Below are positions 4,168-19,765 of a stretch of 36,064 nucleotides of DNA, in pieces. The stretch comes from Geobacteraceae bacterium (GTDB taxonomy: Bacteria > Desulfobacterota > Desulfuromonadia > Geobacterales > Geobacteraceae), in contig WSYB01000034.1 in the NCBI GenBank assembly GCA_009773645.1, positions 1-36,064 on the forward strand. The letters run 5' to 3'. Positions within the stretch are counted from its first letter, which is position 1, and the number at the start of each line of letters is the position of its first letter. The notes beneath the pieces are model-generated. The model was not told where the DNA came from. It did not search any database and was given only the letters and a program-made list of their open reading frames with translations. The translations under genes and the position numbers were made by a program.

Positions 4168-5052
4168 TCACCTCGTCACCATCATTCCGCCGCCCCCCAT
4201 CATCCCGCCAGGCTGCCAGCGGTTCCCAGTATAGTTCCAGAAGGCGCTGTGGCTCGTCATGTTGCGAAACATCCCCGAGTAGTTCATGAAACCGGCGCCA
4301 ATTGGCACGTTCTGGAGGGTCGCGTGCATCTCGTTTCGCATCGCGGTCATAAACGGACTGTCCATTCCCAGGCCGTTCATGGCATTGTCGGCGATCTGCG
4401 GCATATTCAGGTTAATCTCTCCCATCATGGCCCGATAGCGGTTGACGTTTACGCCGCTACCGTTCATGACCAGAGGGGCCTGCTCTGCCATGAGAGTCGC
4501 CATCTGCCGGGCGGTTTCGCGCATGGTCTGGTAATGTATCTGGTGTTGTCCCGATTGAGAGCCTGCCACATAGTCGGCGAGCATGTCGACGTCGGACGGC
4601 ATGTTGAACTGGTTACGAAGCTGGGTCATCGCCTCGGCCATGGTCATGTCGGGATTGGCGGCCATTTTTCCCCTGATGAGCGACGACATGGGGCTGACAA
4701 AGGCCGTAACACCCGCTGGCGCCGATATGACATAGCCATTCTGGACCGTTTGGCCGGTATCCTCGTCGACCGTGCTTCCCGCCACGGCCCTGCACACGAC
4801 GGGGTACTCACCGAGGTCGGAAGAGGCAATGCTGAGGGTGTAGGCTCCACCCGCACGGCTGGCCGTCTTCGGCTCCCCTGCATCCCACTGGTAGTTGCCG
4901 TTCCTGTCGAGGAAAACCTCCGCTTCCCGCAGGTAGCCATCGGCAACCACCCCGCTCACCGTTGCCGCAGGTGTGCCGGCGCTTCCGCCGCTGCACCCGG
5001 CTGTGATTCCCGCGGTAAAAATAACTGCTGTCGTTACCACTATTTTCAACAT
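4168..5052 (-). CDS. Lipoprotein with Ca-loop-like domain and Met-rich C terminus (copy 1)
   Basis: A 294-residue lipoprotein with lipobox ITAGC (Cys20) and a good ribosome site (GAGGAG). Residues 30-75 form a short carboxypeptidase-regulatory/SdrD-B-like beta module with an acidic loop, DRNGNYQWDAGEP, of calcium-binding appearance. The middle is helical and rich in Met and Gln. The C-terminal third holds many methionines and the conserved segment GMFRNMTSHSAFWNYTG, ending in Gly-Met runs. Surface or outer-membrane attachment is inferred from the lipobox. A close paralog lies at 8432-9304. The Met-rich tail suggests soft-metal contact, but no function is established. Upstream sits only the 3' remnant of a membrane-barrel gene. 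Confidence 0.75.
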   Translation of the reverse strand: MLKIVVTTAVIFTAGITAGCSGGSAGTPAATVSGVVADGYLREAEVFLDRNGNYQWDAGEPKTASRAGGAYTLSIASSDLGEYPVVCRAVAGSTVDEDTGQTVQNGYVISAPAGVTAFVSPMSSLIRGKMAANPDMTMAEAMTQLRNQFNMPSDVDMLADYVAGSQSGQHQIHYQTMRETARQMATLMAEQAPLVMNGSGVNVNRYRAMMGEINLNMPQIADNAMNGLGMDSPFMTAMRNEMHATLQNVPIGAGFMNYSGMFRNMTSHSAFWNYTGNRWQPGGMMGGGGMMVTR

Positions 5053-6229: not shown

Positions 6230-6309
6230 CGCCTCTGCCTCACCCGCCTGCTGTCCCCTCTTCTCATGATTCAAGCATAGCAAAGGGTTGTGGAGGAAAT
6301 TTGAAGAGG

Positions 6310-7680
6310 TTATGGAGAATTATGGAGATTTTCCTGGTCGGGCAGCCGGACGGTAAAAGTGCTTCCTTCCCCGGGCTGGCTTGCGACCTCGATGGCGCCG
6401 CCGTGGGCGTCCACCAGTTCGCGGACAATCGGCAACCCCAGCCCCAGGCCGTCACTCTCTTTCCGATAGAAGCGCTCGAAGATGAGCGGCAGGTCTGCTT
6501 CAGTTATGCCCCGACCGGTGTCCGTTACATCAATCCGGCAACAACCCGGTTCGGCTGCCCCGCTGAGCCGGATGGTCCCCCCGCTGTCGATGGCCTTGAC
6601 GGCGTTGGTTACCAGGTTGATAAAGATCTGGGTTAGTCGTTCTAGGTCGGCATTGACCCGGACTTCATCATCGCACGCAACGGAAAAGGAGATGTTTTTC
6701 TTGCCAGCCGCATCTGAAAAGCGCTGCGCAATGCTCTCAAGAAAAGGTTTCAGGGGGAGCCGGATGCGCTTCAGGGTCAAGGCGCTGGCTTCGGCCTGGA
6801 CCAGTTCCTCGACGTTGCCCACAATCCGGGCAAGGCGGAGGTCCTCCTCCAGCAACGATTCCAGCACCCGACGTTCTATCGGGATGAGGCCGTCGAGCAT
6901 CCCCTCCAACTGCCCCTGCATGATAGCCAGCGGGGTTCTCATCTCATGGGCGAAATTAGCACTGACTTTCTTTCTCAGGGCGTTCTGCTTTTCCAGGGCC
7001 TGGGTCATCCGGTTGAAGGAGTGCGCAAGGGTCGCCAGTTCGTCGCTGCCGGTGATCTCGATCCGTTCGTGCAGGTTTCCCTGGCTGATGCTGTCCGCTG
7101 CCCGTGCCAGCCGGGATATGGGACGGGTGAGCCTGCGGGCAAGGATCATGCTAGACAGGATAGCGACGCCACCTAGAAGCAGGGCCGAGATGAGGAGAAA
7201 CCGGTTGGTCCGGGAAACGAACAGCGCCCTTTTCTCATGGGGGAAATAGCGCACCTCCAGGCGTCCTATTTCTTCCCCTTTGAGGAACAGCGGATAGCTG
7301 GCATACGGGCCGTGGCTGCGCGTGACATTGATTCCGGCGCTTGACAGGATGCGCTGAAGGCTTTCCGGGGAGAGTTGCTTAAGGGCTCTCGCCGTGTCCA
7401 TCACCAAGGCGCCGCGCCGGTCTTTCACCCGCATCTCGATGCCAAGCAGCAACGCCCAGACCGCATCTCCCGTCAGTGCTTCCCGATTCCACTCCTGATT
7501 CTTCTCGAAGGCGGTTTCCAGGGCGGCGCTCACCCAGTAAACACGGTCCTCCATCTCCCCTTCGGTCAACTGACCGAAATCGCGCACGATCAGCTTCCGC
7601 AGAATCAGTGATGACGATACGCCAAGGGCCGCAACGATGATCAGCACAAGCAAGAATTTCCAGCGGATACTGCTACGCAT
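6310..7680 (-). CDS. Membrane sensor histidine kinase (BaeS/CusS-like)
   Basis: A 456-residue sensor kinase. Membrane helix 1 is about residues 8-28 and helix 2 about 160-182. The roughly 130-residue periplasmic part between them carries no recognised domain. A HAMP domain follows (about 183-236). The HisKA box is NFAHEMRTPLA with phospho-acceptor H245. The ATPase domain has the N box NLVTNAVKAI (355-364), G1 DTGRGI (387-392), F box FERFYR and G2 GLGLGLP (411-417), so it should be active. Its start overlaps the response-regulator stop by 8 bases, making them a coupled pair. Envelope or metal stress is a likely signal given the neighbours, but that is inference. Confidence 0.92.
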   Translation of the reverse strand: MRSSIRWKFLLVLIIVAALGVSSSLILRKLIVRDFGQLTEGEMEDRVYWVSAALETAFEKNQEWNREALTGDAVWALLLGIEMRVKDRRGALVMDTARALKQLSPESLQRILSSAGINVTRSHGPYASYPLFLKGEEIGRLEVRYFPHEKRALFVSRTNRFLLISALLLGGVAILSSMILARRLTRPISRLARAADSISQGNLHERIEITGSDELATLAHSFNRMTQALEKQNALRKKVSANFAHEMRTPLAIMQGQLEGMLDGLIPIERRVLESLLEEDLRLARIVGNVEELVQAEASALTLKRIRLPLKPFLESIAQRFSDAAGKKNISFSVACDDEVRVNADLERLTQIFINLVTNAVKAIDSGGTIRLSGAAEPGCCRIDVTDTGRGITEADLPLIFERFYRKESDGLGLGLPIVRELVDAHGGAIEVASQPGEGSTFTVRLPDQENLHNSP

Positions 7681-8368
7681 CTTTCACCCCGCCGAACCTG
7701 TAGCCCAGGCCGTAGACGGTCAGCACGAACACCGGCGAATGGGGGTCGTCGCCCAGCTTGTGGCGGATGTTCTTGATGTGGGAGTCGATGTTTCTCTCGT
7801 ACCCCTCGAACCGATAACCCATGACCTTGTCGATCAGCTCTTCCCTGGTGAAGGTCTTCTGGGGGGTAGCGGCAAGAGCGAAGAGGAGCTTGAATTCCGC
7901 CGCGGTCAGCTTGACCGGCCGGCCTTTGCAGACGACGCTGAAGCCGGCGTTATCGAGGATGAGCGTGCCGCCGTTGAAGCTGAGCCGGTCGCCGCCGCCG
8001 ACCTTCCCGGCCCGTTTGAGGACCGCCTGGACACGGCAGACCAGCTCTCGCGGACTGAACGGCTTGACGATGTAGTCATCGGCCCCGAGGGCAAACCCCG
8101 CCAGCCGCTCTTCTTCGGAAGACTTGGCGGTCAGCATGATAACGGGTATCTCAGTGGTCTCGGCCAATTCCCGGCAGACCGCCTCGCCGCTCAGGTCGGG
8201 AAGCATCAGGTCGAGCACCACCAGAACCGGATTTTCCGTTTTGGCAAGGGCCAAGGCGCTGACTCCGCTTTCCGTATGGATGACCCTGAAACCGGCCTGC
8301 TCCAGATAGACGCGGGCGATTTCGGCAAGTTTCAGATCGTCTTCAACAAGGAGAATGGAATGTGACAA
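7673..8368 (-). CDS. OmpR-family response regulator
   Basis: A 231-residue regulator with a receiver domain (1-115) and a winged-helix DNA-binding domain (about 130-228). The phospho-acceptor is D53 in VLDLMLPD, with D10/D11, T80 and K102 as the other conserved active-site residues. The gene starts with TTG (8366-8368), supported by GGGAGG about 7 bases upstream; no in-frame ATG fits as well. It is the partner of the kinase whose gene overlaps its end. It follows the copy-2 lipoprotein by 63 bases, so it may be in the same transcript and may control it. Confidence 0.93.
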   Translation of the reverse strand: MSHSILLVEDDLKLAEIARVYLEQAGFRVIHTESGVSALALAKTENPVLVVLDLMLPDLSGEAVCRELAETTEIPVIMLTAKSSEEERLAGFALGADDYIVKPFSPRELVCRVQAVLKRAGKVGGGDRLSFNGGTLILDNAGFSVVCKGRPVKLTAAEFKLLFALAATPQKTFTREELIDKVMGYRFEGYERNIDSHIKNIRHKLGDDPHSPVFVLTVYGLGYRFGGVKDA

Positions 8369-8431
8369 CGGCTACCTCCCCCTCAAAATATGATACCCAA
8401 GATTTAAGCGCTACGAAGGTTTCTACCCCAT

Positions 8432-9304
8432 TCACATCATTCCAGAACCCATCATGCCGCCCGGACGCCAACGACTCCCAGTATAGTTCCAGAAGGCGCT
8501 GTGGCTCGTCATGTTACGAAACATCCCCGAGTAGTTCGTGAAACCGCCCCCGACCTGCATCCCCTGGAGCATGGTCCGCATCCGATCCCGCATCGCGGTC
8601 ATGGGTGCGCTGTCCATACCGCTGCCGTTCATGGCGTTGTCGGTGATCTGCGACATGTTAAGGTTTATCTCTCCCATCATGGCCCGGTAGCGGCCACGAT
8701 TGATTCCGGCGCCGTTCATGACGAGGGGGGCCTGCTCGGCCATGAGGCTTGTCATCTGCCTGGCGGTCTCCCGCATGGTCTGGTAGTGGACCTGGTGCTG
8801 TCCGACACCCGAGCCGGCCACGTAGTCGCCGAGCATATTCACCTCCGCCGGCAGGTTGAGCTGGTTGCGGAGCTGGACCATCGCGTCGGTCGTGGTCATC
8901 CCCGGATTGGCGGCCATCTTCTCCCTGATGAGCGATGACATGGGGCTGATGAAGCCGGTTGATCCGGACGGCGCGGAGAGGACGTAGCCGCTCTGCACCG
9001 GCTTACCGTCGTCCTCATCAACGGTACTCCCCGCCATGACCCTGACGACGATCGGGTATTTCCCCTCGTCTGCGGGCGCAACTGACAGAGTGTAGTAGCC
9101 GTGGGGGCCGGAGACGGTTTTCGGCTCCCCCTCGTCCCACTGGTAGTTGCCGTTCTTGTCCATGAAGACCTGGGCACCCACAAGATAGCCGTCGGCCACA
9201 GTCCCACTCACGGTAGCCGCGGGGGTGCTGCCACCGCTGCCGCCGCACCCGGCAATACTTCCCACAGCCAAAACAGCAGCTACTGCCAGAAATCTTTTTA
9301 ACAT
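8432..9304 (-). CDS. Lipoprotein with Ca-loop-like domain and Met-rich C terminus (copy 2)
   Basis: A 290-residue lipoprotein, close paralog of the 4168-5052 product: lipobox SIAGC (Cys20), the same beta module with acidic loop DKNGNYQWDEGEP, the same helical middle, and the conserved SGMFRNMTSHSAFWNYTG segment before a Gly/Met-rich end (PGGMMGSGMM). AAAGGAG precedes the start. DNA identity between the copies is high around 8478-8530 and 4217-4275. It lies directly upstream of a two-component system, whereas copy 1 lies directly upstream of the small protein. No function is assigned. Confidence 0.75.
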   Translation of the reverse strand: MLKRFLAVAAVLAVGSIAGCGGSGGSTPAATVSGTVADGYLVGAQVFMDKNGNYQWDEGEPKTVSGPHGYYTLSVAPADEGKYPIVVRVMAGSTVDEDDGKPVQSGYVLSAPSGSTGFISPMSSLIREKMAANPGMTTTDAMVQLRNQLNLPAEVNMLGDYVAGSGVGQHQVHYQTMRETARQMTSLMAEQAPLVMNGAGINRGRYRAMMGEINLNMSQITDNAMNGSGMDSAPMTAMRDRMRTMLQGMQVGGGFTNYSGMFRNMTSHSAFWNYTGSRWRPGGMMGSGMM

Positions 9305-9635: not shown

Positions 9636-10493
9636 TCACTCATCCGCATTCCCAACATGATGTGCCTTTGGTGCGAGTCGGCGGAAACCCTCCCAGTCAG
9701 GAGGCGAGTAAGCATCCCGTCTCCAGTGAAGCCCGGCATCCCGGATCGTTCCCGGCAGGTCGGCCTCGAAGAGGAGCCGGAAAGCGAGGTAGAGAACGGT
9801 GAACTGCTGGTCGCGGTTCCCCGGCTCCCCTAAGGCGTGTCCGAATGGGAAACGGAGAAAGAGCGCCCGGGGAGGCGGTGTTTTCTCCGTGATTTCCCGG
9901 ACAATGGAGAGGGATATCGTGGGGATTCCCGCTGCTTCTATCGCCCGAGCTGCCAGTCCCACGGACCGGTTGCAGCTCCCTCAGGCAGGAACCAGCAGGG
10001 CATAGTCCGCCTTGGCATCGGCGAGCTTACGGGCAATCGCCGGGGCGGTCTCTTCCTGAAGAGTTTTCAGGTGGGGACCGTCGATGTGTCCCATCAGACT
10101 GAAGGCTGTCGTGTAAAGGGCGCCCAGGGCACCCGACTCAACAAGTTCCTGTAGCCTCTGGAGCGGTAAAACGAGGTTCAGGTCCCTTTCGGCGTCCCGG
10201 TGGTCGTAATAGTCGTGGGTAATGGTGAGGCTGTCAGCAGGGGTATCCGTGGGTATCTCCCGAAAGGTTGGATCGCCGTTCGGGTCGGCCATGTTGAACG
10301 GCTGCTGTGTCTTCAAATGGACCCCGCCCGTGGCCACCAGGGCCAGCACCGCTTCCTTCAAAGGTTTCCGGGGTTCAGTCCAGGGAATGCCGGCGATATT
10401 CGCATCGAGCCGCCGGCCCCACCGGGCCGCCAGGGATGGGAAAGAGGTAAAAGCCCTGGCAAGAAACCTGTTTTTCAGCCGAATGAAAGTCAT
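9636..10493 (-). CDS. GrdB-family selenoprotein (Sec at UGA 9981-9983)
   Basis: A 285-residue protein when the in-frame UGA at 9981-9983 is read as selenocysteine. Upstream and downstream parts share one frame and join as ...YALLVPA-U-GSCNRSVGLAARA..., giving U171-x-x-C174, the redox motif of the glycine/sarcosine/betaine reductase selenoprotein B family. After it come AIEAAGIPTISLSIVREI and PPPRALFLRFPFGHALGEPG, characteristic of the GrdB-like branch found outside glycine fermenters. The start at 10493 has AGGAGG 9 bases upstream. A good SECIS hairpin begins 3 bases after the UGA. The ends of the two halves would be nonsense otherwise. The substrate is unknown; no GrdA or GrdC is present, so a stand-alone reductase is more likely than glycine reductase. 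Confidence 0.85.
9947..9983 (-). promoter_or_regulatory. Bacterial SECIS element with UGA codon
   Basis: Immediately after UGA, GAGCUG (9978-9973) pairs with CAGCUC (9952-9947). A three-base bulge (CAA) follows, then CCGGUCC (9969-9963) pairs with GGACUGG (9959-9953), closing a three-base loop (GUG). Position, length and the GGUC beside the apical loop fit the SelB-binding hairpin of bacterial selenoprotein mRNAs. Confidence 0.75.
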
Positions 10494-10601
10494 GTGCCAT
10501 ATCCTCCTCATCAAGGATTACCACCCAGCAACGATCCACCATGCGTACGATCCGGGCTAGGAGCGTGTCGTCCGGACCCGATCACGTCCCACAGCCTGTC
10601 T

Positions 10602-11382: not shown

Positions 11383-12027
11383 TTATTTGCGCTCCTCCAG
11401 GAAAGCCTCTTTGCAGACTTCCGAGCAAAAGTAGAACGTATGACCAGTCCACTCGACCTTGCTTGTCGCCGCAGTCGCCGAAATCTGCATGCCGCAAACA
11501 GGGTCAGAGACGATGTTGTCCTTCTGGTAGAATGGATGAGTTTCCAGGCGGAGGTAGGTATCGACAAACTCGATAATCTTTTCCTCCACCCACAAGCCTA
11601 TTGCTTCGTCCGAGTCATCAAGTGGGAATGTCTGCTCTTCATCCCGCTTGTATTCCATCAGCACGGGACGGATCTCAAGATCGTAGCGGGCCGTAAGCCC
11701 TGTACCGCTTTCCTCGGGAAGCAGACATATATCAAAGGAAACGGTGGCGGGGAAACGGGGGGTGTGGGCAAACTGGCAAAAACAGTGGAAATCGGCATCG
11801 CCATGCCGTTCCGAGATGGCAGCGTTGTCAAAATGCCGCGACAACTCCTCCATCCGAGGATGGATGACCAACTCCATGGTACGGCGGGCAACGGCGGCAA
11901 ATCGCTCCCGTTGCTCCAGCAGTTCTTTCATCGTACTGTCGATGAGCTTTTGCTGCTCGGCAAGTTCGTTTTGATGTCGTTCGAGACTATTGAGTATCCT
12001 GCTTGATAACCGTCCGTTGTCAGCCAT
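11383..12027 (-). CDS. YHS-domain protein with coiled-coil N terminus
   Basis: A 214-residue cytoplasmic protein; the start at 12027 has GGGAGG upstream. Residues 10-65 look like a coiled coil (SLERHQNELAEQQKLIDSTM). The middle (66-170) is a charged beta/alpha part with HCFCQF and does not match a family I know. Residues 174-212 are a YHS domain: SDPVCGM at the start, FYFCSEVCKEAF at the end, with C178, C201 and C205 as likely metal ligands. YHS domains occur in copper ATPases and metal-handling proteins. Position after a cytochrome gene and before the SAP-like gene indicates one operon. Confidence 0.75.
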   Translation of the reverse strand: MADNGRLSSRILNSLERHQNELAEQQKLIDSTMKELLEQRERFAAVARRTMELVIHPRMEELSRHFDNAAISERHGDADFHCFCQFAHTPRFPATVSFDICLLPEESGTGLTARYDLEIRPVLMEYKRDEEQTFPLDDSDEAIGLWVEEKIIEFVDTYLRLETHPFYQKDNIVSDPVCGMQISATAATSKVEWTGHTFYFCSEVCKEAFLEERK

Positions 12028-12053
12028 TGTCGTCACCTCCCGTGGGACTTGTT

Positions 12054-12476
12054 TCAGCGGAATTTTGCATGGCACTCGGTGCATTTCGCTTCCGCCTTCT
12101 GAAAGGCAGCCTTGGCCTTGGTAAAATCTCCCTTTTTCGCCAGTTCCACCGTTTCCTTAAGATCGCTTTCAAAGCCGGCCGCTATGTTTCTGAACGTTTT
12201 CGGCAGCTTGAGGTTCTTGTGGGGCTTAGCCTTCTTCAGATCTGGGGCCGTGGCGAGCATCTTACCGGCCTCCGCTTCGACAGAAGCAGAGTCCCCTTTC
12301 TCCAAGGCCTTTTCGACATTTGCCTGGGCAGCGGCGAACATCGGCATCATGTCGTGGAGCTTCTGCATCTGAGCATTGGCCTTATGCTTTTTCTCGTGCT
12401 TCTCCCCTTCGTGGGCGAAAGCCCCACTCTGGATCAGAAGAACTGCACTGAACGTTATTGCTATGATTTTCTTCAT
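12054..12476 (-). CDS. Periplasmic monoheme cytochrome, class II (c'-like)
   Basis: A 140-residue exported protein with a signal peptide (1-21, cleavage near AFAHEG), a His/Lys-rich N-terminal stretch (HEGEKHEKKHK) and four amphipathic helices. A single heme site, CTECH (132-136), lies at the very C terminus, which is the class II cytochrome c'/c556 arrangement. The start at 12476 is preceded by GAGGGG. It lies 24 bases after the GerMN lipoprotein gene and 26 before the YHS gene. Electron carriage or ligand binding in the periplasm is expected from the family. Confidence 0.85.
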   Translation of the reverse strand: MKKIIAITFSAVLLIQSGAFAHEGEKHEKKHKANAQMQKLHDMMPMFAAAQANVEKALEKGDSASVEAEAGKMLATAPDLKKAKPHKNLKLPKTFRNIAAGFESDLKETVELAKKGDFTKAKAAFQKAEAKCTECHAKFR

Positions 12477-12500: not shown

Positions 12501-13376
12501 TCAATGTTCTTTCACTTCAAGCGAATGCTCCTCATCGCCATCAGCCATTCTTCCGAGCTTATCCACCACTTTCCAGCGAACCTTCACCGGCAATCCGGCC
12601 TTGAATAGAGAAGGATCTTTCGGCTTCAGGACCGCGGCCATGTCGAAGACCGAGTGGAAGACTTCCCCGGGAAAAGCCTTCCCATCCTTGTCGGCGATGG
12701 TCAGCTCCTTGATTTCGACCGGCCGGTCGAAATAGGCGCTCACCTCTTCCACTTCCTTCGCCCCTTTATCCTTTACCGCCGTCACACTGAGCAGCCTGGG
12801 AGGCGAAGGATCGAGTACCGATGACGCGACTGGCAGAAGGGTCCCTTTCGCGAAGTCGAGGTCCTTCCCTTCCGAGAGCAGCCTCACGCCCTTGATCCCC
12901 TCGAATTGGGTAAGAGTCATAACCAGGGCGTTCAGCGTTCCTTCTTTATCCGTTCCGGTCTTCAAAAAATCCTTGCTCAAGTTGATCTTCACCAGGCCTT
13001 CCTGTTGAGTAAGCTCCAGGAGATGTGCACCGGCTGCAAACGGCTGAAGGATCTCACCTTTGTAAGCAGGCACCTCCATTCCGCCGATCAGACGTTCCAC
13101 GGCTACCTTCTTCATGCTGGCTTCGTCGAAGGTGAAGAAAGGGAAAGAGACAACTTTTCCCGTCTCCTTCGCGGAGGGAAAATAGATGACGAAGGCAAAG
13201 CAGGTCCCTTTGTCGGTGGTGGGGGCGGGTCCGAAGTATTTTTCGTAAGCTTTCGTCGCTGAAACCTTAGCAGGTTTAGCGGCCTGCGGGGCATCCTGTT
13301 TGCGGCATGCTCCAATGTGCAGAGACAGGGGCAGAATCATCGAAAACAAAAGTAGGCGCGATATTGTGAACATCAT
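12501..13376 (-). CDS. GerMN-domain lipoprotein
   Basis: A 291-residue lipoprotein with lipobox HIGAC (Cys24). Residues about 58-175 match the GerMN domain pattern: a variable beta strand start, VERLIGGMEVPAYKGEI, a loop, GLVKINLSKDFL, then a helix ALVMTLTQFEGIKGVRLL. A second beta-rich domain (about 185-285) resembles an Ig-like or Gmad-type module. GGAGGAG sits just upstream; two adjacent ATG codons make either residue 1 or 2 the start. In spore formers GerM acts in the cell wall; in Gram-negatives the role is unknown. It leads the cytochrome/YHS genes. Confidence 0.75.
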   Translation of the reverse strand: MMFTISRLLLFSMILPLSLHIGACRKQDAPQAAKPAKVSATKAYEKYFGPAPTTDKGTCFAFVIYFPSAKETGKVVSFPFFTFDEASMKKVAVERLIGGMEVPAYKGEILQPFAAGAHLLELTQQEGLVKINLSKDFLKTGTDKEGTLNALVMTLTQFEGIKGVRLLSEGKDLDFAKGTLLPVASSVLDPSPPRLLSVTAVKDKGAKEVEEVSAYFDRPVEIKELTIADKDGKAFPGEVFHSVFDMAAVLKPKDPSLFKAGLPVKVRWKVVDKLGRMADGDEEHSLEVKEH

Positions 13377-13431: not shown

Positions 13432-14211
13432 TCAGTTACAATTACCGCCTTTGTAAATCCATCCTGTCCGGGAGCATACATATTTCCTGCTGTACGAACA
13501 CGCTTCTTCTCCCTCCTGGTGTGGCCTGTCATGCAATGAACATTCTACAGGTGCCAAATGATCCTTTTTTTGTGCCCACAACCGGACCAGGCGGTTTTTC
13601 GACCCCTCTGCAAGGCCCCAATCCTGTTTCGCCAAGACATCTTCATAATGCAATATTCGATACTTGGAGAATATCTGCAAAAGCTCATTATCGGCAAATG
13701 TTGGATCATCCGGCAATATACGCATTTTCTGGCTGTCCCTGTGGAAAAATTCCACCATGACAATACCTCCCGGTTTCAGGCTTTCGTAGACTCTGTCAAC
13801 CATAATACGGTCGAAGGGGACATAAGAGAGGACGACCAAATCCCATTTGTTTTTGCCGTAATCAAAAACCGCAGCATCCTGGACAATGGTATTAATCTTT
13901 GTACCAGACACTCTGGCATTCTCAACAGCCATATTAACATCCATTTCCGAATTGTCGAACCCGGTAACGTCCCAGCCGAGCGTGGCCAGATAAATGGCGT
14001 TTCGCCCTGTTCCCATGGCCACGTCGAGCGCTTTGCCGGGCTTCATTCCTCGAACCATGTTCACGAGAAAAGCATTGGGCTCGTGATTGAAATCATCGTA
14101 ATAAGAAGGAGGATCAGCATGGTTGAACGAACTCTGATTTTTCTGCTGATTCGCCAGAACAGTTTCGAACTGGAGAAGAAGTATCAAGAGCAACGTAATA
14201 AATATACGCAT
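13432..14211 (-). CDS. Exported class I SAM-dependent methyltransferase
   Basis: A 259-residue protein. The start at 14211 opens a hydrophobic signal peptide, MRIFITLLLILLLQFETVLA, unusual for a methyltransferase because SAM is cytoplasmic. The Rossmann motif I is ALDVAMGTGRNA (61-72), motif II ends in GFDNSE and motif IV is DLVVLSYVPF, so the catalytic fold looks intact. It is close to TehB/UbiE-like families. The C-terminal tail holds four cysteines (PVECSLHDR...ACSYSRKYVCSRTGW...GNCN). The ribosome site is weak; a longer frame reaches 14298 but would bury the signal. The substrate is unknown. Confidence 0.75.
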   Translation of the reverse strand: MRIFITLLLILLLQFETVLANQQKNQSSFNHADPPSYYDDFNHEPNAFLVNMVRGMKPGKALDVAMGTGRNAIYLATLGWDVTGFDNSEMDVNMAVENARVSGTKINTIVQDAAVFDYGKNKWDLVVLSYVPFDRIMVDRVYESLKPGGIVMVEFFHRDSQKMRILPDDPTFADNELLQIFSKYRILHYEDVLAKQDWGLAEGSKNRLVRLWAQKKDHLAPVECSLHDRPHQEGEEACSYSRKYVCSRTGWIYKGGNCN

Positions 14212-14346
14212 CTGATGGCCGCCTTTCGATTCATATAGTTTTTCAGTATAGTTTTTACTTTGCCTCACCCTAGCCGATATGTCAATTACAGGTCTCATTT
14301 CTTCTTGATTATTTTTGTCAAGAATATGGGCGCACCTGTCCGCGGA

Positions 14347-15071: not shown

Positions 15072-18000
15072 TCAATGTTTCATCCCCGAATAATGCAATT
15101 TCCCCTTCCGTAGATCCCGTATCTTCATCAGTACAAAGATAACCGGCGTCATTATCAGGACGTGGATGGCCGAAGAGATCATCCCCCCGATCATCGGCGC
15201 GGCAATCGGCTTCATTACGTCGGCGCCGGTCCCGGTGGACCACATGATCGGCACCAGGCCGATGAGCGCCACCGCCACGGTCATCAGCTTCGGCCGCAGC
15301 CGCAGCACCGCCCCCTCGAAGGTGGCGTCGTAGATATCCTGCTCGGAGCATGGCCCGTTGATGAGCTTTTTGTCGAGGGCCTCGTGGAGATAGATGACCA
15401 TCACCACCCCGGTCTCCACCGCCACCCCGTAGAGGGCGATGAAGCCGACCCAGACCGCCACCGACATGTTGTACCCCAGGAGCCAGACCAGGTAGACCCC
15501 CCCCACCAGCGCAAAGGGGACCGAAAGCATGACCATGGAGGCCTCCAGGGCGGAATGGAAGGTGAAGTAGAGGAGGATGAAGATGATCACGATACCCGCC
15601 GGCACCAGGAGCTGGAGCCGCTTCTTGGCCCGGATCTGGTTCTCCCACTGCCCCGACCAGGCGACGTAATAGCCGGCAGGGAGCTTCAACTGTTTCTCCA
15701 GCACTGTTTTCGCCTCGGTGACGAATCCCCCCATATCGCGGCCGCGCACGTTCAAGAAGACGATGGAGCGCAGGAGCCCCCCCTCGCTGTTGATCTCCGG
15801 CGCGCCGGTGGAGACCGTCAGTTTCGTCACCAGCGACAGGGGAACCTGGGTATCGCTGTTCATGCCGGAAACCAGTATCCGCTGGATGGCCGGGATGTTG
15901 TCGCGGTAGTCGCGCAGGTAGCGGATGCGGATCGGGAAGCGGTTTCTCCCCTCCACCGATGTGGAGAGCATCTCGCCGCCAAGAGCCGTCTCGATTACGT
16001 CCTGGACGTCGCCGACTCTGACGTTATAGCGGGCCGCCGCCTCCCGGTCGATGTCGATGTCGATGTAGTTGCCGCCGGTGACCCGCTCGGCCACCACGTC
16101 GGCGGCGCCGGGGACGGTCTTCAGGATACCCTCGGCCTGGACCGCCAGATCCTTCAGGACGTTCAGGTCGTTGCCGAAGATCTTCACCCCCAGGTCGGTC
16201 CGGACGCCGGTGGAGAGCATGTTGATCCGGTTGATGATCGGCTGGGTCCAGCCGTTACGCACCCCGATCTGCTGGAGCCTGGTGTCCAGCTCGGAGACGA
16301 TGTCGGACTTGGTGATCCCTTCGCGCCACTTTTCCTTAGGCTTCAGGATGATGATCGATTCGAACATGGAGACCGGCGCCGGATCGGTGGAGGTCTCGGC
16401 CCTACCCACCTTGCCGAGGACGTGCTCCACCTCCGGGTGGTTCTTGATGATCCTGTCCTGGACCTGGATGAGCCGCTTCGCCTCGCTGATGGAGACGTTG
16501 GGAAGGGTGACCGGCATATAGAGGAGCGACCCCTCGTCCAGTGGGGGCATGAACTCGCTCCCTATGCTCATGAACATCGGGATGGCGATCCCCAGGGCGA
16601 CGACGTTGAGAGCGATAGTGGTCTTTTTCCATTTCAGCACCCAGCGGATAACCGGCGAGTAGAGCCTGATGAAGAACATGGAGACCGGGTTGGCGCTCTC
16701 CGGCGGCATCTTCCCCCGCATGAAATAGTACATGAGGACCGGCACCAGGGTAATGGCGATGAAGGCCGAGCCGACCATGGAGAAGGTCTTGGTGAAGGCG
16801 AGCGGATGGAACAGCTTCCCTTCCTGCCCCTCCAGGAGAAAGACAGGCACGAAGGAGAGGATGATGATGGCGAGGGAGAAGAAGATGGCCCTACCTACCT
16901 GCTTGGCAGAAGAGATGATGACTTCCAGCCGTTTCTCCTTCCGCTCCTCGGGGGGAAGCTCCGAGAGGTGGCGGTAGCAGTTCTCCACCATGATGACCCC
17001 GGCGTCGACGAGAACGCCGATGGCAATGGCGATCCCCCCGAGGGACATGATGTTGGAGGTGACCCCCATCAGCTTCATGGTGATGAACGAAATCAACACC
17101 GCTATGGGGAGCGTCAGGACGATGACCAGGGAGCTCTGGAAGTGGAGAAGGAAGGCGAGAATCACCAGCGACACGACGATCGACTCCTCCGCAAGCGCGC
17201 GCTTCAGGGTATCGACGGCCCGCATGATCAGGTCGGAGCGGTCGTAGGAGACCATGATCTTGACGCCGGGCGGGAGCCCTTTCTCCAGGGCCTGTATCTT
17301 CTCCTTCACCCGGTGGATGACGTCGTGGGCATTCTCGCCGTAGCGCATGACCACAATGCCGCCGACCGCCTCCCCCTCGCCGTTCATGTCCAGCACCCCG
17401 CGGCGAATGGCGCCCCCGGTCTGGACGGTTCCCAGGTTCTTCACGTAAATGGGGGTGCCGCGCATGTCCGCGCCGACGACTATATCCTCAAGGTCCTTGG
17501 TGGACTTGATGTACCCCCTCCCCCTTATCAGGTATTCGGCGTCGGCCTGTTCCATGAGTCTGCCGCCCACGTCCTTGTTGGAACGCTGCACCGCCTCCAT
17601 GACTTGGCCGGTGGTGACCTTGTAGGAAAAGAGCTTCATCGGGTCGAGGTCGATCTGGTATTCCCGGACGAAGCCGCCGATGGAAGCCACCTCGGCCACG
17701 CCGGGGACGGTGTTCAACTGGTAGCGGACGAACCAGTCCTGCAGGGTGCGGAGCTGCTCCAGGTCGTACCCCTTCCCCTCGATGGTGTACCAGTAGACGT
17801 GCCCCACCCCGGTGCCGTCCGGGCCAAGGGTCGGCCGGACGTTGGGGGGGAGAAGCGAAGCGGCGTAGTTGAGCCGCTCCAGGACACGGGTACGCGCCCA
17901 GTAGATGTCGGCCTTGTCCTCGAAGATGACGTAGATCATGGAGAAGCCGAAGGCCGAGGAGGCACGCACGGCCCGCACCTGGGGGAGCCCCTGGAGGTTC

Positions 18001-18212
18001 ACCGCCAGGGGATAGGTCACCTGGTCCTCCACCACCTGCGGTGAGCGGCCGGGGTACTCGGTAAAGACGATCACCTGGTTGTCGGAGAGGTCGGGGATGG
18101 CGTCCACCGGGGTCTTGTAGACCGCCCACACACCCCACGCAATGATGAGTCCGAAGATCATCAGGATGATGACCCGGTTTCTGGCAGAATAGTCGATTAT
18201 TTTCTCAATCAT
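15072..18212 (-). CDS. cusA: CusA-type Cu(I)/Ag(I) RND efflux pump
   Basis: A 1046-residue HME-RND pump of normal length. The start at 18212 opens with the usual MIEKIIDYSARNR. The proton-relay aspartate in TM4 is D403 in IGVLVDAG. Three methionines line up with the copper/silver site of E. coli CusA (M573, M623, M672) at a constant offset of seven: M566 in LLYMP, M616 in DPAPVSM and M665 in NMLSTG. This favours monovalent Cu/Ag over zinc or cobalt. It extrudes metal from periplasm or cytoplasm through the adaptor and outer-membrane channel encoded just upstream. Spacing to the adaptor gene is about 106 bases and is filled by a palindromic repeat. Confidence 0.93.
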   Translation of the reverse strand: MIEKIIDYSARNRVIILMIFGLIIAWGVWAVYKTPVDAIPDLSDNQVIVFTEYPGRSPQVVEDQVTYPLAVNLQGLPQVRAVRASSAFGFSMIYVIFEDKADIYWARTRVLERLNYAASLLPPNVRPTLGPDGTGVGHVYWYTIEGKGYDLEQLRTLQDWFVRYQLNTVPGVAEVASIGGFVREYQIDLDPMKLFSYKVTTGQVMEAVQRSNKDVGGRLMEQADAEYLIRGRGYIKSTKDLEDIVVGADMRGTPIYVKNLGTVQTGGAIRRGVLDMNGEGEAVGGIVVMRYGENAHDVIHRVKEKIQALEKGLPPGVKIMVSYDRSDLIMRAVDTLKRALAEESIVVSLVILAFLLHFQSSLVIVLTLPIAVLISFITMKLMGVTSNIMSLGGIAIAIGVLVDAGVIMVENCYRHLSELPPEERKEKRLEVIISSAKQVGRAIFFSLAIIILSFVPVFLLEGQEGKLFHPLAFTKTFSMVGSAFIAITLVPVLMYYFMRGKMPPESANPVSMFFIRLYSPVIRWVLKWKKTTIALNVVALGIAIPMFMSIGSEFMPPLDEGSLLYMPVTLPNVSISEAKRLIQVQDRIIKNHPEVEHVLGKVGRAETSTDPAPVSMFESIIILKPKEKWREGITKSDIVSELDTRLQQIGVRNGWTQPIINRINMLSTGVRTDLGVKIFGNDLNVLKDLAVQAEGILKTVPGAADVVAERVTGGNYIDIDIDREAAARYNVRVGDVQDVIETALGGEMLSTSVEGRNRFPIRIRYLRDYRDNIPAIQRILVSGMNSDTQVPLSLVTKLTVSTGAPEINSEGGLLRSIVFLNVRGRDMGGFVTEAKTVLEKQLKLPAGYYVAWSGQWENQIRAKKRLQLLVPAGIVIIFILLYFTFHSALEASMVMLSVPFALVGGVYLVWLLGYNMSVAVWVGFIALYGVAVETGVVMVIYLHEALDKKLINGPCSEQDIYDATFEGAVLRLRPKLMTVAVALIGLVPIMWSTGTGADVMKPIAAPMIGGMISSAIHVLIMTPVIFVLMKIRDLRKGKLHYSGMKH

Positions 18213-18225
18213 GATTGATTCCCAT

Positions 18226-18316
18226 GTAGGGGCAAGCCCCGTGTGGTTGCCCAAATGTAGGGGCAACCCCGTGTGGTTGCCCAAGTATGAGGGCGGCCAC
18301 ATGGGGCCGCCCCTAC
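18226..18316. repeat. GTAGGGG...CCCCTAC palindromic repeat 3 (composite)
   Basis: A 91-bp element between the adaptor and pump genes. It holds two near-identical tandem units (TGTAGGGGCAA..CCCCGTGTGGTTGCCCAA) and then a third (GAGGGCGGCCACATGGGGCCGCCCCTAC), as if elements inserted into or copied beside one another. Its edge is 3 bases from the adaptor stop. Confidence 0.8.
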
Positions 18317-18318
18317 GA

Positions 18319-19740
18319 TCACATCTTCATGTCATCCATCTTAAAGGTCCCCTTCTTTTCCGGCTGCTGCTGTGCCGGTGGGGCACCATGATCTTCATGA
18401 CCTCCCTGGGGCTGCTGCTGGCCTGCTGCCGGGGTCTGTTCCTTCGCCCCCGGCGCGCCGCCGCTGTGCTTGCTGTGATCCTGCCCGGCGCCCCCTTTGA
18501 GCTGGGCCTCTGAGTCTATCAGATAGCCGCCGCTGGCCGCGATTTTGTCACCCCGCTTCAAACCTTCGATAATCTGAAGATAGTCGCCGACCCGGGCGCC
18601 GACCTTCACGTCGCGCGGCTCGAACATCCCCGGCTTCATCTCCACCCAGACCACCTGACGCTTGCCTGTATCCATCACCGCGGAAACCGGCGCCACCAGC
18701 GAGTCGCCCAGCGGAACCTTGACGGTTGCATTGACGAACATGTCCGGTTTCAGTTTCAGACCGTGATTGGCGAGTTCAACCCGAACCTTGACCGTCCTCG
18801 TTTTCGGATCGAGGAACGGGTAGATGAATGAAACCCTGCCGGTAAAAGTCTTGCCCGGATAGGATTGGGAGACCACATCCACCTTTTGGCCGAGCTTCAC
18901 GAAGGAAAACTCGTTCTCGTAGACCTCGACCTCGACCCAGACCGTGGAGAGATCGGCGATGTTGAACAGAGGGTCGCCGACATTCAGATACTGCCCTTCC
19001 TGCACCAGTTTTTCAATCACCACCCCGGAGAGAGGGGTATAGATGGGAAGCCTGATGTTGGGCTGCCCGGCCTTTTCCAGGGCGGCGATCTGCTCATCCT
19101 TGACACCCATCAGTTTCAGGCGCTGCCGGGACGAGGAAACCAGTCCGTCCCCCCCCTGGGAGATGGCGGCTATCGGCGAGCTCTTCAGCTGATCCCGACT
19201 CTTCAAAGCCAGGAGATACTCCTGCTGGGCCGAGACCAGGTCGGGGGAATAGACCTCCGCCACCGGCCTCCCTTTGGACACGTACGTCCCGACGGTATTC
19301 ACATGGAGACGGTCGATGCGCCCCGCCACCCAGGCGGTGACCTTTGCCTGCCGTGCCTGGTCGAACTGGACTATGCCGACGGCGTTGATCTCCTTGGCGA
19401 GCGGTTCCCTATTCACCTTGACTGTGGCGACGTTGGCCATCACCTGCTGGGATGGGGAAAGAGAAACGTGTCCCAGCATTTCCAGCTCTTTGTCTGAGGC
19501 CTGGGCGCCTTCCACCTTCTTGACCAGCGTCATCCCGCAGATTGGGCAGGAGCCCGGCTTGTCCTTGATGATGAAGGGGTGCATGGGACAGGTGTACTGG
19601 ACGGCCTGGGCCGCTTTTTCTCCTTCCTTGGCCCCCTTCCCGGCTCCGGCCTTCATCTGCCACAGGTAGTACCCTCCTCCGCCCGCAAGCGCCAGGAGTA
19701 TCACTACCAGGGAAATTATCGCCTTCTTGCTCAGTTTCAT
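18319..19740 (-). CDS. cusB: CusB-type periplasmic adaptor with heavy-metal-binding domain
   Basis: A 473-residue membrane-fusion protein. The start at 19740 has GAGG 8 bases upstream. Residues 7-27 are a membrane anchor. Residues 49-75 are a heavy-metal-binding domain, YTCPMHPFIIKDKPGSCPIC region, with C51, C65, C68 and nearby Met/His. The barrel-sandwich and hairpin region follows (AWVAGRIDRLHVNTVGTYVSKG; LVSAQQEYLLAL), then beta-barrel domains with VWVEVEVYENE. The last 50 residues are a His/Gln/Met-rich tail (DHSKHSGG, GGHEDHGAP, KMDDMKM) that probably binds metal. It links pump and channel in the Cus-type complex. Confidence 0.92.
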   Translation of the reverse strand: MKLSKKAIISLVVILLALAGGGGYYLWQMKAGAGKGAKEGEKAAQAVQYTCPMHPFIIKDKPGSCPICGMTLVKKVEGAQASDKELEMLGHVSLSPSQQVMANVATVKVNREPLAKEINAVGIVQFDQARQAKVTAWVAGRIDRLHVNTVGTYVSKGRPVAEVYSPDLVSAQQEYLLALKSRDQLKSSPIAAISQGGDGLVSSSRQRLKLMGVKDEQIAALEKAGQPNIRLPIYTPLSGVVIEKLVQEGQYLNVGDPLFNIADLSTVWVEVEVYENEFSFVKLGQKVDVVSQSYPGKTFTGRVSFIYPFLDPKTRTVKVRVELANHGLKLKPDMFVNATVKVPLGDSLVAPVSAVMDTGKRQVVWVEMKPGMFEPRDVKVGARVGDYLQIIEGLKRGDKIAASGGYLIDSEAQLKGGAGQDHSKHSGGAPGAKEQTPAAGQQQPQGGHEDHGAPPAQQQPEKKGTFKMDDMKM

Positions 19741-19765
19741 AGTCGTACCTCGTAGTCTTATCATT

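Follow-up and report, generated by a model that had tools for sequence, protein, structure and literature searches.

A UGA codon in the minus-strand gene described here is very probably read as selenocysteine (probability about 0.93), making the product a 285-residue selenoprotein of the PrdB/GrdB superfamily with selenocysteine at residue 171 (Sec171). The gene lies in the window, the 36,064-nt stretch of a Geobacteraceae contig that was analyzed. A single minus-strand frame runs from an ATG at 10493-10491 to a terminal TGA at 9638-9636 and is interrupted only by the TGA at 9983-9981; UGSC occupies residues 171-174 of the read-through protein. A sequence-only reading of the window had located the split gene (9636-10493) and its TGA (9981-9983) correctly, and had predicted that automatic callers would divide it, as a mechanical list of open reading frames (translation table 11) does, yielding pieces of 177 aa (9981-10514) and 108 aa (9636-9962). 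The chance of 114 open codons 3′ of the TGA is ∼0.018 at the local G+C; judged from the sequence, an open frame past a TGA is by itself weak evidence, and homology decides. The positions of the gene, its decoding signals, and its neighbors are collected in Table 1.

Table 1. Features of the selenoprotein gene and its surroundings, in window coordinates.
Feature	Positions	Strand	Basis
PrdB-like gene, 285 aa with predicted Sec171 (UGSC)	9636..10493	-	Read-through translation and profile matches
In-frame UGA, predicted Sec171 codon	9981..9983	-	TGA at the site in 63/64 distinct genes read
Cys174 codon, putative resolving Cys of U-x-x-C	9972..9974	-	Kept in at least 90% of a 59-row alignment
Ribosome-binding site AGGAGG, spacing of 9 nt to ATG	10503..10508	-	Sequence
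Putative SECIS apical stem-loop with GUG triloop; stem of 8 bp across the family and of 7 bp (9953-9969) in the window	9952..9970	-	Covariation
Lower stem extending the putative SECIS, window-specific	9947..9978	-	RNAfold of the window; 48.9% of cells paired in the family
Truncated nifS, N-terminal ∼141 of 379 positions plus ∼20 further residues	10602..11150	-	TIGR03402 positions 1-141/379; context
YHS-domain protein; L087 has a homolog 5 nt upstream of its PrdB-like gene	11383..12084	-	PF04945; context
Cytochrome c′-like protein; homolog 77 nt upstream in L086	12054..12488	-	PF01322; context
Germane-domain lipoprotein-like gene; Geomonas homologs precede the PrdB-like gene by 27-29 nt	12501..13376	-	PF10646; context
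CusA/CzcA heavy-metal efflux RND pump	15072..18302	-	TIGR00914, 1168.1 bits (cut-off 701.45); context
CusB-like membrane fusion protein with heavy-metal-binding domain	18319..19764	-	PF16576, PF19335; context

Profile matches to the protein were obtained from 13 of 48 genomes of the host's taxonomic family and, at E<=1e-20, from 87 of 395 genomes of a phylum sample, the host being included in both counts; a profile search of genome contigs gave 20 loci, among them loci from Geomonas, Geobacter, and Chloroflexota. The homologs continued past the UGA rather than ending there. Sixty-five loci, window included, were read at the site, giving 64 distinct genes once L028 (the same segment as L093) was dropped; the site counts leave out a partial locus (L042), one whose frame looks broken (L043), and the GrdB-length relatives L054 and L055 in G047 and G041. 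The site codon was TGA in 63 of the 64 genes and GGA (Gly) in the other, and none of the 64 was a Cys homolog at this position, so the usual pairing of Sec and Cys forms is missing among the genes read. Most lower-scoring matches in the phylum sample list one TGA inside the match, the site counts covering the 64 read genes. The gene with GGA (L109, at 7771-8544 of G404:C12) retains an intact hairpin (-17.0 kcal/mol) in a genome with selB, and its codon reflects either a sequencing error or a rare Sec-to-Gly change. Besides that genome, three matches lacking an internal stop are fragmentary and provide no reading across the site, having unrelated sequence upstream (L177), a run of N (L178), or an internal deletion (L179). 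Four distant relatives (L039, L040, L041, and L130) read UPLD, with Sec retained and the following Cys replaced by Asp; as aligned, the resolving Cys of the family is thus not universal.

The closest relative, from G034, is 85% identical, and a maximum-likelihood tree placed the window protein as its sister (support 100/98) inside the Geobacteraceae rows. Between these two genes, dN was 0.066 and dS 0.340 past the UGA, and 0.106 and 0.528, respectively, before it; in all eight comparisons, third positions took more than half of the substitutions both before and after the UGA, with dS saturated or not computable in the more distant pairs. These substitution patterns indicate that the protein past the UGA is kept under purifying selection. 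A Herpetosiphonaceae contig (L032) carries two neighboring PrdB-like genes (4209-4994 and 6292-7119). Elsewhere in the host genome, 71 bp (L092, G000:C21:2113-2183), near what by inspection look like a YtkA-like gene and a methyltransferase, are 93% identical to window positions 10111-10181 and are perhaps a remnant of a second gene copy.

The sequence-only reading had also described a two-part hairpin after the UGA, of which the apical part is a family feature and the lower part largely the window's own. RNAfold folds the 50 nt from the TGA into a hairpin of -19.9 kcal/mol, whose 7-bp and 6-bp helices are separated by an AAC bulge and whose loop is a GUG triloop; the features by which a SECIS element was recognized, a hairpin just after the UGA and a G in a small apical loop, are thus both present. 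Single-sequence folding is weak evidence here: the window hairpin had a z of -2.13, with 7 of 200 shuffles equal or better, the same hairpin scored a z of just -1.39 (22/200) when 10 nt more upstream were included, and the segment of the nearest relative scored -0.39 (64/200). Covariation, by comparison, argues strongly for the element. A gap-free alignment of the 51 bases from the TGA covers 63 sequences (61 distinct rows), and the apical 8-bp stem with its GUN triloop had 96.1% of cells paired (88.7% when shuffled), 40 double-change cells (12.0 when shuffled), and a covariation score of 0.319 (0.166 when shuffled), values each reached by 0 of 500 shuffles; further pair types numbered 10 (reached by 1/500) and pairs with a double change 3 (reached by 173/500), and sequence relatedness can beat such shuffles even without structure. 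When the stem was slid by -3 to +3, the original register was best in both paired percentage and covariation score, and six of the stem's eight pairs were recovered by RNAalifold in an unaided prediction; the window itself is without the outermost conserved pair (columns 14 and 32), where it has A-C. Over the 61 distinct rows, 48.9% of cells were paired in the lower stem (columns 6-12 with 31-37).

Synonymous covariation is, in our judgment, the strongest evidence for the SECIS element, since protein conservation alone would not yield it. Among 60 distinct sequences, counted with relatedness ignored, the third base of codon 4 after the TGA (mostly Asn or His) is correlated with the first base six codons later (T-A 32, C-G 24, C-A 3, G-C 1; Fisher p 1.4e-13, relatedness ignored); AAT/CAT pair with A-starting codons and AAC/CAC with G-starting codons, with three exceptions. 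Gln CAA is likewise found with Leu TTG in 6 of 6 cases and CAG with CTG in 28 of 28, UCC pairs with GGA/GGG, ACC with GGU, and GCC with GGC, and GGA encodes the Gly after the loop in 42 of 60 sequences compared with 13% elsewhere in the same genes. Synonymous-codon shuffling of 64 rows (L028 included) gave a modest but consistent signal, with a mean z of -1.38, 60 rows folding better than the shuffle median, and 20 in the best 5%; the window had a z of -1.91, with 4% of shuffles as good. The stem-loop pattern, which was drawn from the alignment and so checks uniqueness only, has a single match in the window with <=2 mismatches allowed and no match in any of 100 shuffles, and an Rfam scan of the window at gathering thresholds returned no family.

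The host genome (G000), a draft in 78 contigs with a completeness rating of 100% and 4.12% contamination, holds all four components of the selenocysteine machinery that the sequence-only reading had proposed to look for, each over its cut-off: tRNA-Sec (79.5 bits), selA (617), selB (383.6), and selD (347.6). The host selD (L020, G000:C47:86701-87618) itself carries an in-frame TGA. That the UGA is a true stop, followed by a decayed frame or a separate gene, has a negligible probability, since the two open reading frames of the table-11 caller and the truncated nifS just upstream, a sign that deletions may have hit the neighborhood, are outweighed by a TGA shared by 63 of the 64 distinct genes read, from Geobacteraceae and other phylum-sample members to Chloroflexota, purifying selection past the UGA, a covarying SECIS, the Sec machinery, and one confidently predicted domain across the site. 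The selenocysteine assignment made from the sequence alone is therefore upheld by codon conservation, homology past the site, the covarying hairpin, and the machinery.

An AlphaFold model of the read-through protein, with Cys in place of Sec, had a mean pLDDT of 92.6 and a pTM of 0.91, and predicts one alpha/beta domain spanning the Sec site. In the model, a strand at 164-168 runs to residue 171 and is followed by a helix at 174-187, and three strands (192-196, 209-212, and 249-252) come from the segment past the UGA, so that a product ending at residue 170 would miss much of the domain. A sequence search for solved relatives gave three matches, none convincing (best E 0.45, to fibrinogen-binding proteins), and Foldseek gave no match at E<=0.001. 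Microcystinase C was considered as a fold relative, with a Z of 8.4 compared with <=7.3 for the others among the matches listed, and was set aside, leaving the protein with no assigned fold relative.

The best profile for the read-through protein was TIGR04483 (PrdB), with 162.9 bits and an E of 8.5e-48, under the curated cut-off of 300; the alignment spans residues 38-246 and thus crosses residue 171. PF07355 matched at 27.1 bits (gathering cut-off 22), and the GrdB-type models reached only 37-41 bits, matching in their second half, with both TIGR01917 (37 bits, cut-off 602.2) and TIGR01918 (39.7 bits, cut-off 65.45) missed. All 59 aligned members were matched by TIGR04483 at E<=0.001, and by the GrdB-type models more weakly. 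On these scores, the protein is nearer to PrdB than to GrdB; it belongs to the PrdB/GrdB superfamily, a known selenoprotein family and not a new one. The earlier description of two halves of one GrdB-like protein was therefore right as to a single read-through gene, whereas the PrdB profile is the closer; the motif that it had recognized around the stop holds, UGSC fitting the U-x-x-C motif listed for PrdB (PMC9312934, PMC13188914). The gene had also been called an unannotated-looking selenoprotein; its family has been described in work on selenoproteins from 2005 onward (PMC1088965, PMC1794560, PMC2398784).

The namesake reductases have partner subunits, which were sought across genomes. GrdA was not found in the host genome, extending to the whole genome the earlier remark that no GrdA lies nearby, and was found in 5 of 47 genomes searched, namely the sister genomes G041 and G047, included as positive controls, and G073, G272, and G403. 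PrdA was found neither in the host nor, over the cut-off, in any of the 47 genomes, a search in which no match anywhere could act as a positive control; weak PrdA matches of 23-56 bits in G073, G272, and G403 are probably Grd proteins, because all three genomes carry GrdA. As PrdA and GrdA were not found, activity as a D-proline or glycine reductase seems unlikely, and the protein most likely acts without the partners of its namesakes. A filing as true PrdB or GrdB was accordingly rejected on the curated cut-offs and the partners not found. It is thus highly improbable that the gene encodes the PrdB subunit of a true D-proline reductase in amino-acid fermentation: TIGR04483 is the best profile and matches every aligned member, and an earlier survey labels the Geobacter uraniireducens selenoprotein "proline reductase" (PMC1794560), but the score is well under the cut-off of 300, and PrdA was detected neither in the host nor, over its cut-off, in the 47 genomes, albeit in a search without a positive control.

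In the window, a CusB-CusA-type cluster with the Germane-domain, cytochrome c′, and YHS genes precedes the selenoprotein gene on the same strand, and the truncated nifS lies just before it; this nifS, considered as a possible selenium-donor partner, is less than half a gene. The metal cluster also includes a secreted-looking SAM methyltransferase (13432-14298), for which PF03848 was over its cut-off and the NCBIfam model for tehB (tellurite) far below. Elsewhere in the window, two genes that by inspection look like lipoprotein-like paralogs (4168-5052 and 8432-9304) flank a sensor kinase/response regulator pair, the second having no Pfam or NCBIfam match.

Metal-exporter genes recur near the PrdB-like genes. 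A CusA-type RND pump or Cu-ATPase was present within 7 kb at 14 of the 64 loci, window included, and at 0 of 40 control regions (Fisher p 0.00075 by locus, with relatedness ignored and related loci not independent); counted by labeled taxonomic family, the context was present in 8 of 24 compared with 0 of 7 for the controls (p 0.15). The locus regions totaled 702 kb and the controls 600 kb (40 x 15 kb), the latter taken at author-chosen round-number offsets in 17 genomes, two of which (G041 and G047) hold none of the 64 loci. The exporter threshold of 340 bits was fixed after the controls were seen; at the raw search threshold of 1e-8, CusA or CopA matches were found at 15 of 64 loci and 4 of 40 controls, and the four control matches were not heavy-metal exporters (two under every RND cut-off with multidrug models best, one multidrug RND, and one Mg ATPase). 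Ten of the 14 exporters scored over a curated cut-off; of the other four, one (L102) shares 97% identity with L099 and three (L088, L106, and L114) are fragments. Some neighbors are very close. The PrdB-like gene is preceded in L117, at 34 nt, by a Cu-ATPase with YHS domains and in L114, at 22 nt, by a Cu-ATPase fragment that runs into the contig end; a rhodanese gene lies 12-58 nt upstream in L093, L097, L101, and L103 (by Pfam for L093, by BLAST for the others), and in L026 and L027 the upstream neighbor, at 27-29 nt, is a homolog of the window's Germane-domain gene. The metal-exporter context was seen at no Chloroflexota locus, and 50 of the 64 loci lacked a metal exporter by the 7-kb criterion. 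This association, the least expected result, suggests a role in metal or metalloid stress and is a lead, not a demonstration.

What the protein acts on can be read in two ways. It may possibly work alone in reducing an organic substrate, such as a halogenated or quaternary-amine acid, like the GrdB-like FarB, with the metal neighbors incidental. Attack on the C-F bond of fluoroacetate has been proposed for a GrdB-like protein (PMC10838667), so superfamily chemistry may be wider, and most loci have no metal exporter within 7 kb and neighbors that vary widely; however, FarB is described with a FarE partner and a transporter, no comparable partner recurs in neighbor clusters of at least three loci, and exporters stand near 14 of 64 loci compared with 0 of 40 controls. 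The second reading, that the protein handles heavy metals, metalloids, or reactive sulfur or selenium species, is tentative, as is a metal-stress role taken alone. It would fit the Cu-ATPase, rhodanese, YHS (L087), and Germane-domain (Geomonas) genes within 5-58 nt upstream, as well as a 2026 review in which several other selenoproteins are implicated in metal or metalloid resistance (PMC13188914); against it, the evidence is an association among related loci (p 0.15 by family). The fullest version, that a stand-alone PrdB-like lineage without PrdA or GrdA, almost always Sec-dependent, was recruited to heavy-metal or metalloid defense in the host's phylum, its selenol binding or reducing a metal, metalloid, organometal, or persulfide before export, is rather unlikely.

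For the selenoprotein itself, the following course may be proposed. SelB with Sec-tRNA would bind the hairpin, whose conserved stem starts ∼10 nt past the UGA, selenocysteine would be inserted at residue 171, and translation would continue to position 9636, a decoding to which sequence, covariation, and machinery point. In the computed model, Sec would sit between the central strand 164-168 and the helix 174-187, where a selenolate nucleophile would be well placed, and Cys174 would resolve the selenenyl-sulfide, as the chemistry of the family suggests. Because PrdA and GrdA were not found, the substrate probably differs from those of D-proline and glycine reductase; the gene context offers the best functional lead, the gene directly following or lying near heavy-metal export, YHS, or rhodanese genes in several lineages, so that a redox step dependent on the selenol may be envisaged in the handling of metals, metalloids, or reactive sulfur or selenium. 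Correcting the gene matters for annotation, as a standard caller would cut it in two and its nearest family names imply amino-acid fermentation, for which the partner genes were not found. If the tie to metal exporters holds, a widespread protein joins the selenoproteins of metal and metalloid handling, and recruitment to metal defense, if true, would be a function outside amino-acid reduction for the PrdB/GrdB superfamily.

Among known systems, the UGSC family (NF041046, PF24696) shares the letters UGSC and a weak local similarity of 16-17 bits, but the protein is under both curated cut-offs (16.3 bits compared with 125 for NF041046; 25 for PF24696), and this assignment was rejected. GrdB (PF07355, TIGR01917/01918, NF040794/5), whose known cases with GrdA are treated in PMC1242214, is alike in the PF07355 match over its cut-off and in the U-x-x-C motif, and unlike in that PF07355 is matched only at positions 214-344 of 347, GrdA is missing, the TIGR and NF cut-offs are not reached, and a full-length GrdB profile has 431 positions compared with 285 aa here. 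PrdB (TIGR04483) is alike in giving the best profile match, in its U-x-x-C motif, and in length (285 aa here, 238 in the profile), and unlike in that the window protein reaches 162.9 of 300 bits in a host genome without a detected PrdA. Selenoproteins of PrdB type were catalogued in 2005-2008, one of them in Geobacter uraniireducens: PrdB is given as the third most abundant known selenoprotein family in the Sargasso Sea, with 42 genes and the motif UXXC (PMC1088965), GOS data list 235 Sec and 110 Cys forms under pfam07355 (PMC2398784), a "proline reductase" selenoprotein is tabulated for Geobacter uraniumreducens and Anaeromyxobacter dehalogenans (PMC1794560), and a 2016 count gives 131 proteins in 110 organisms (PMC5029168). 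The GOS set differs in its 110 Cys forms, no Cys form occurring among the genes read here; judged by the shared pfam07355 assignment and UxxC motif, the Sargasso, GOS, and G. uraniireducens "proline reductase (PrdB)" selenoproteins (PMC1088965, PMC2398784, PMC1794560) are probably of the same family as the window protein.
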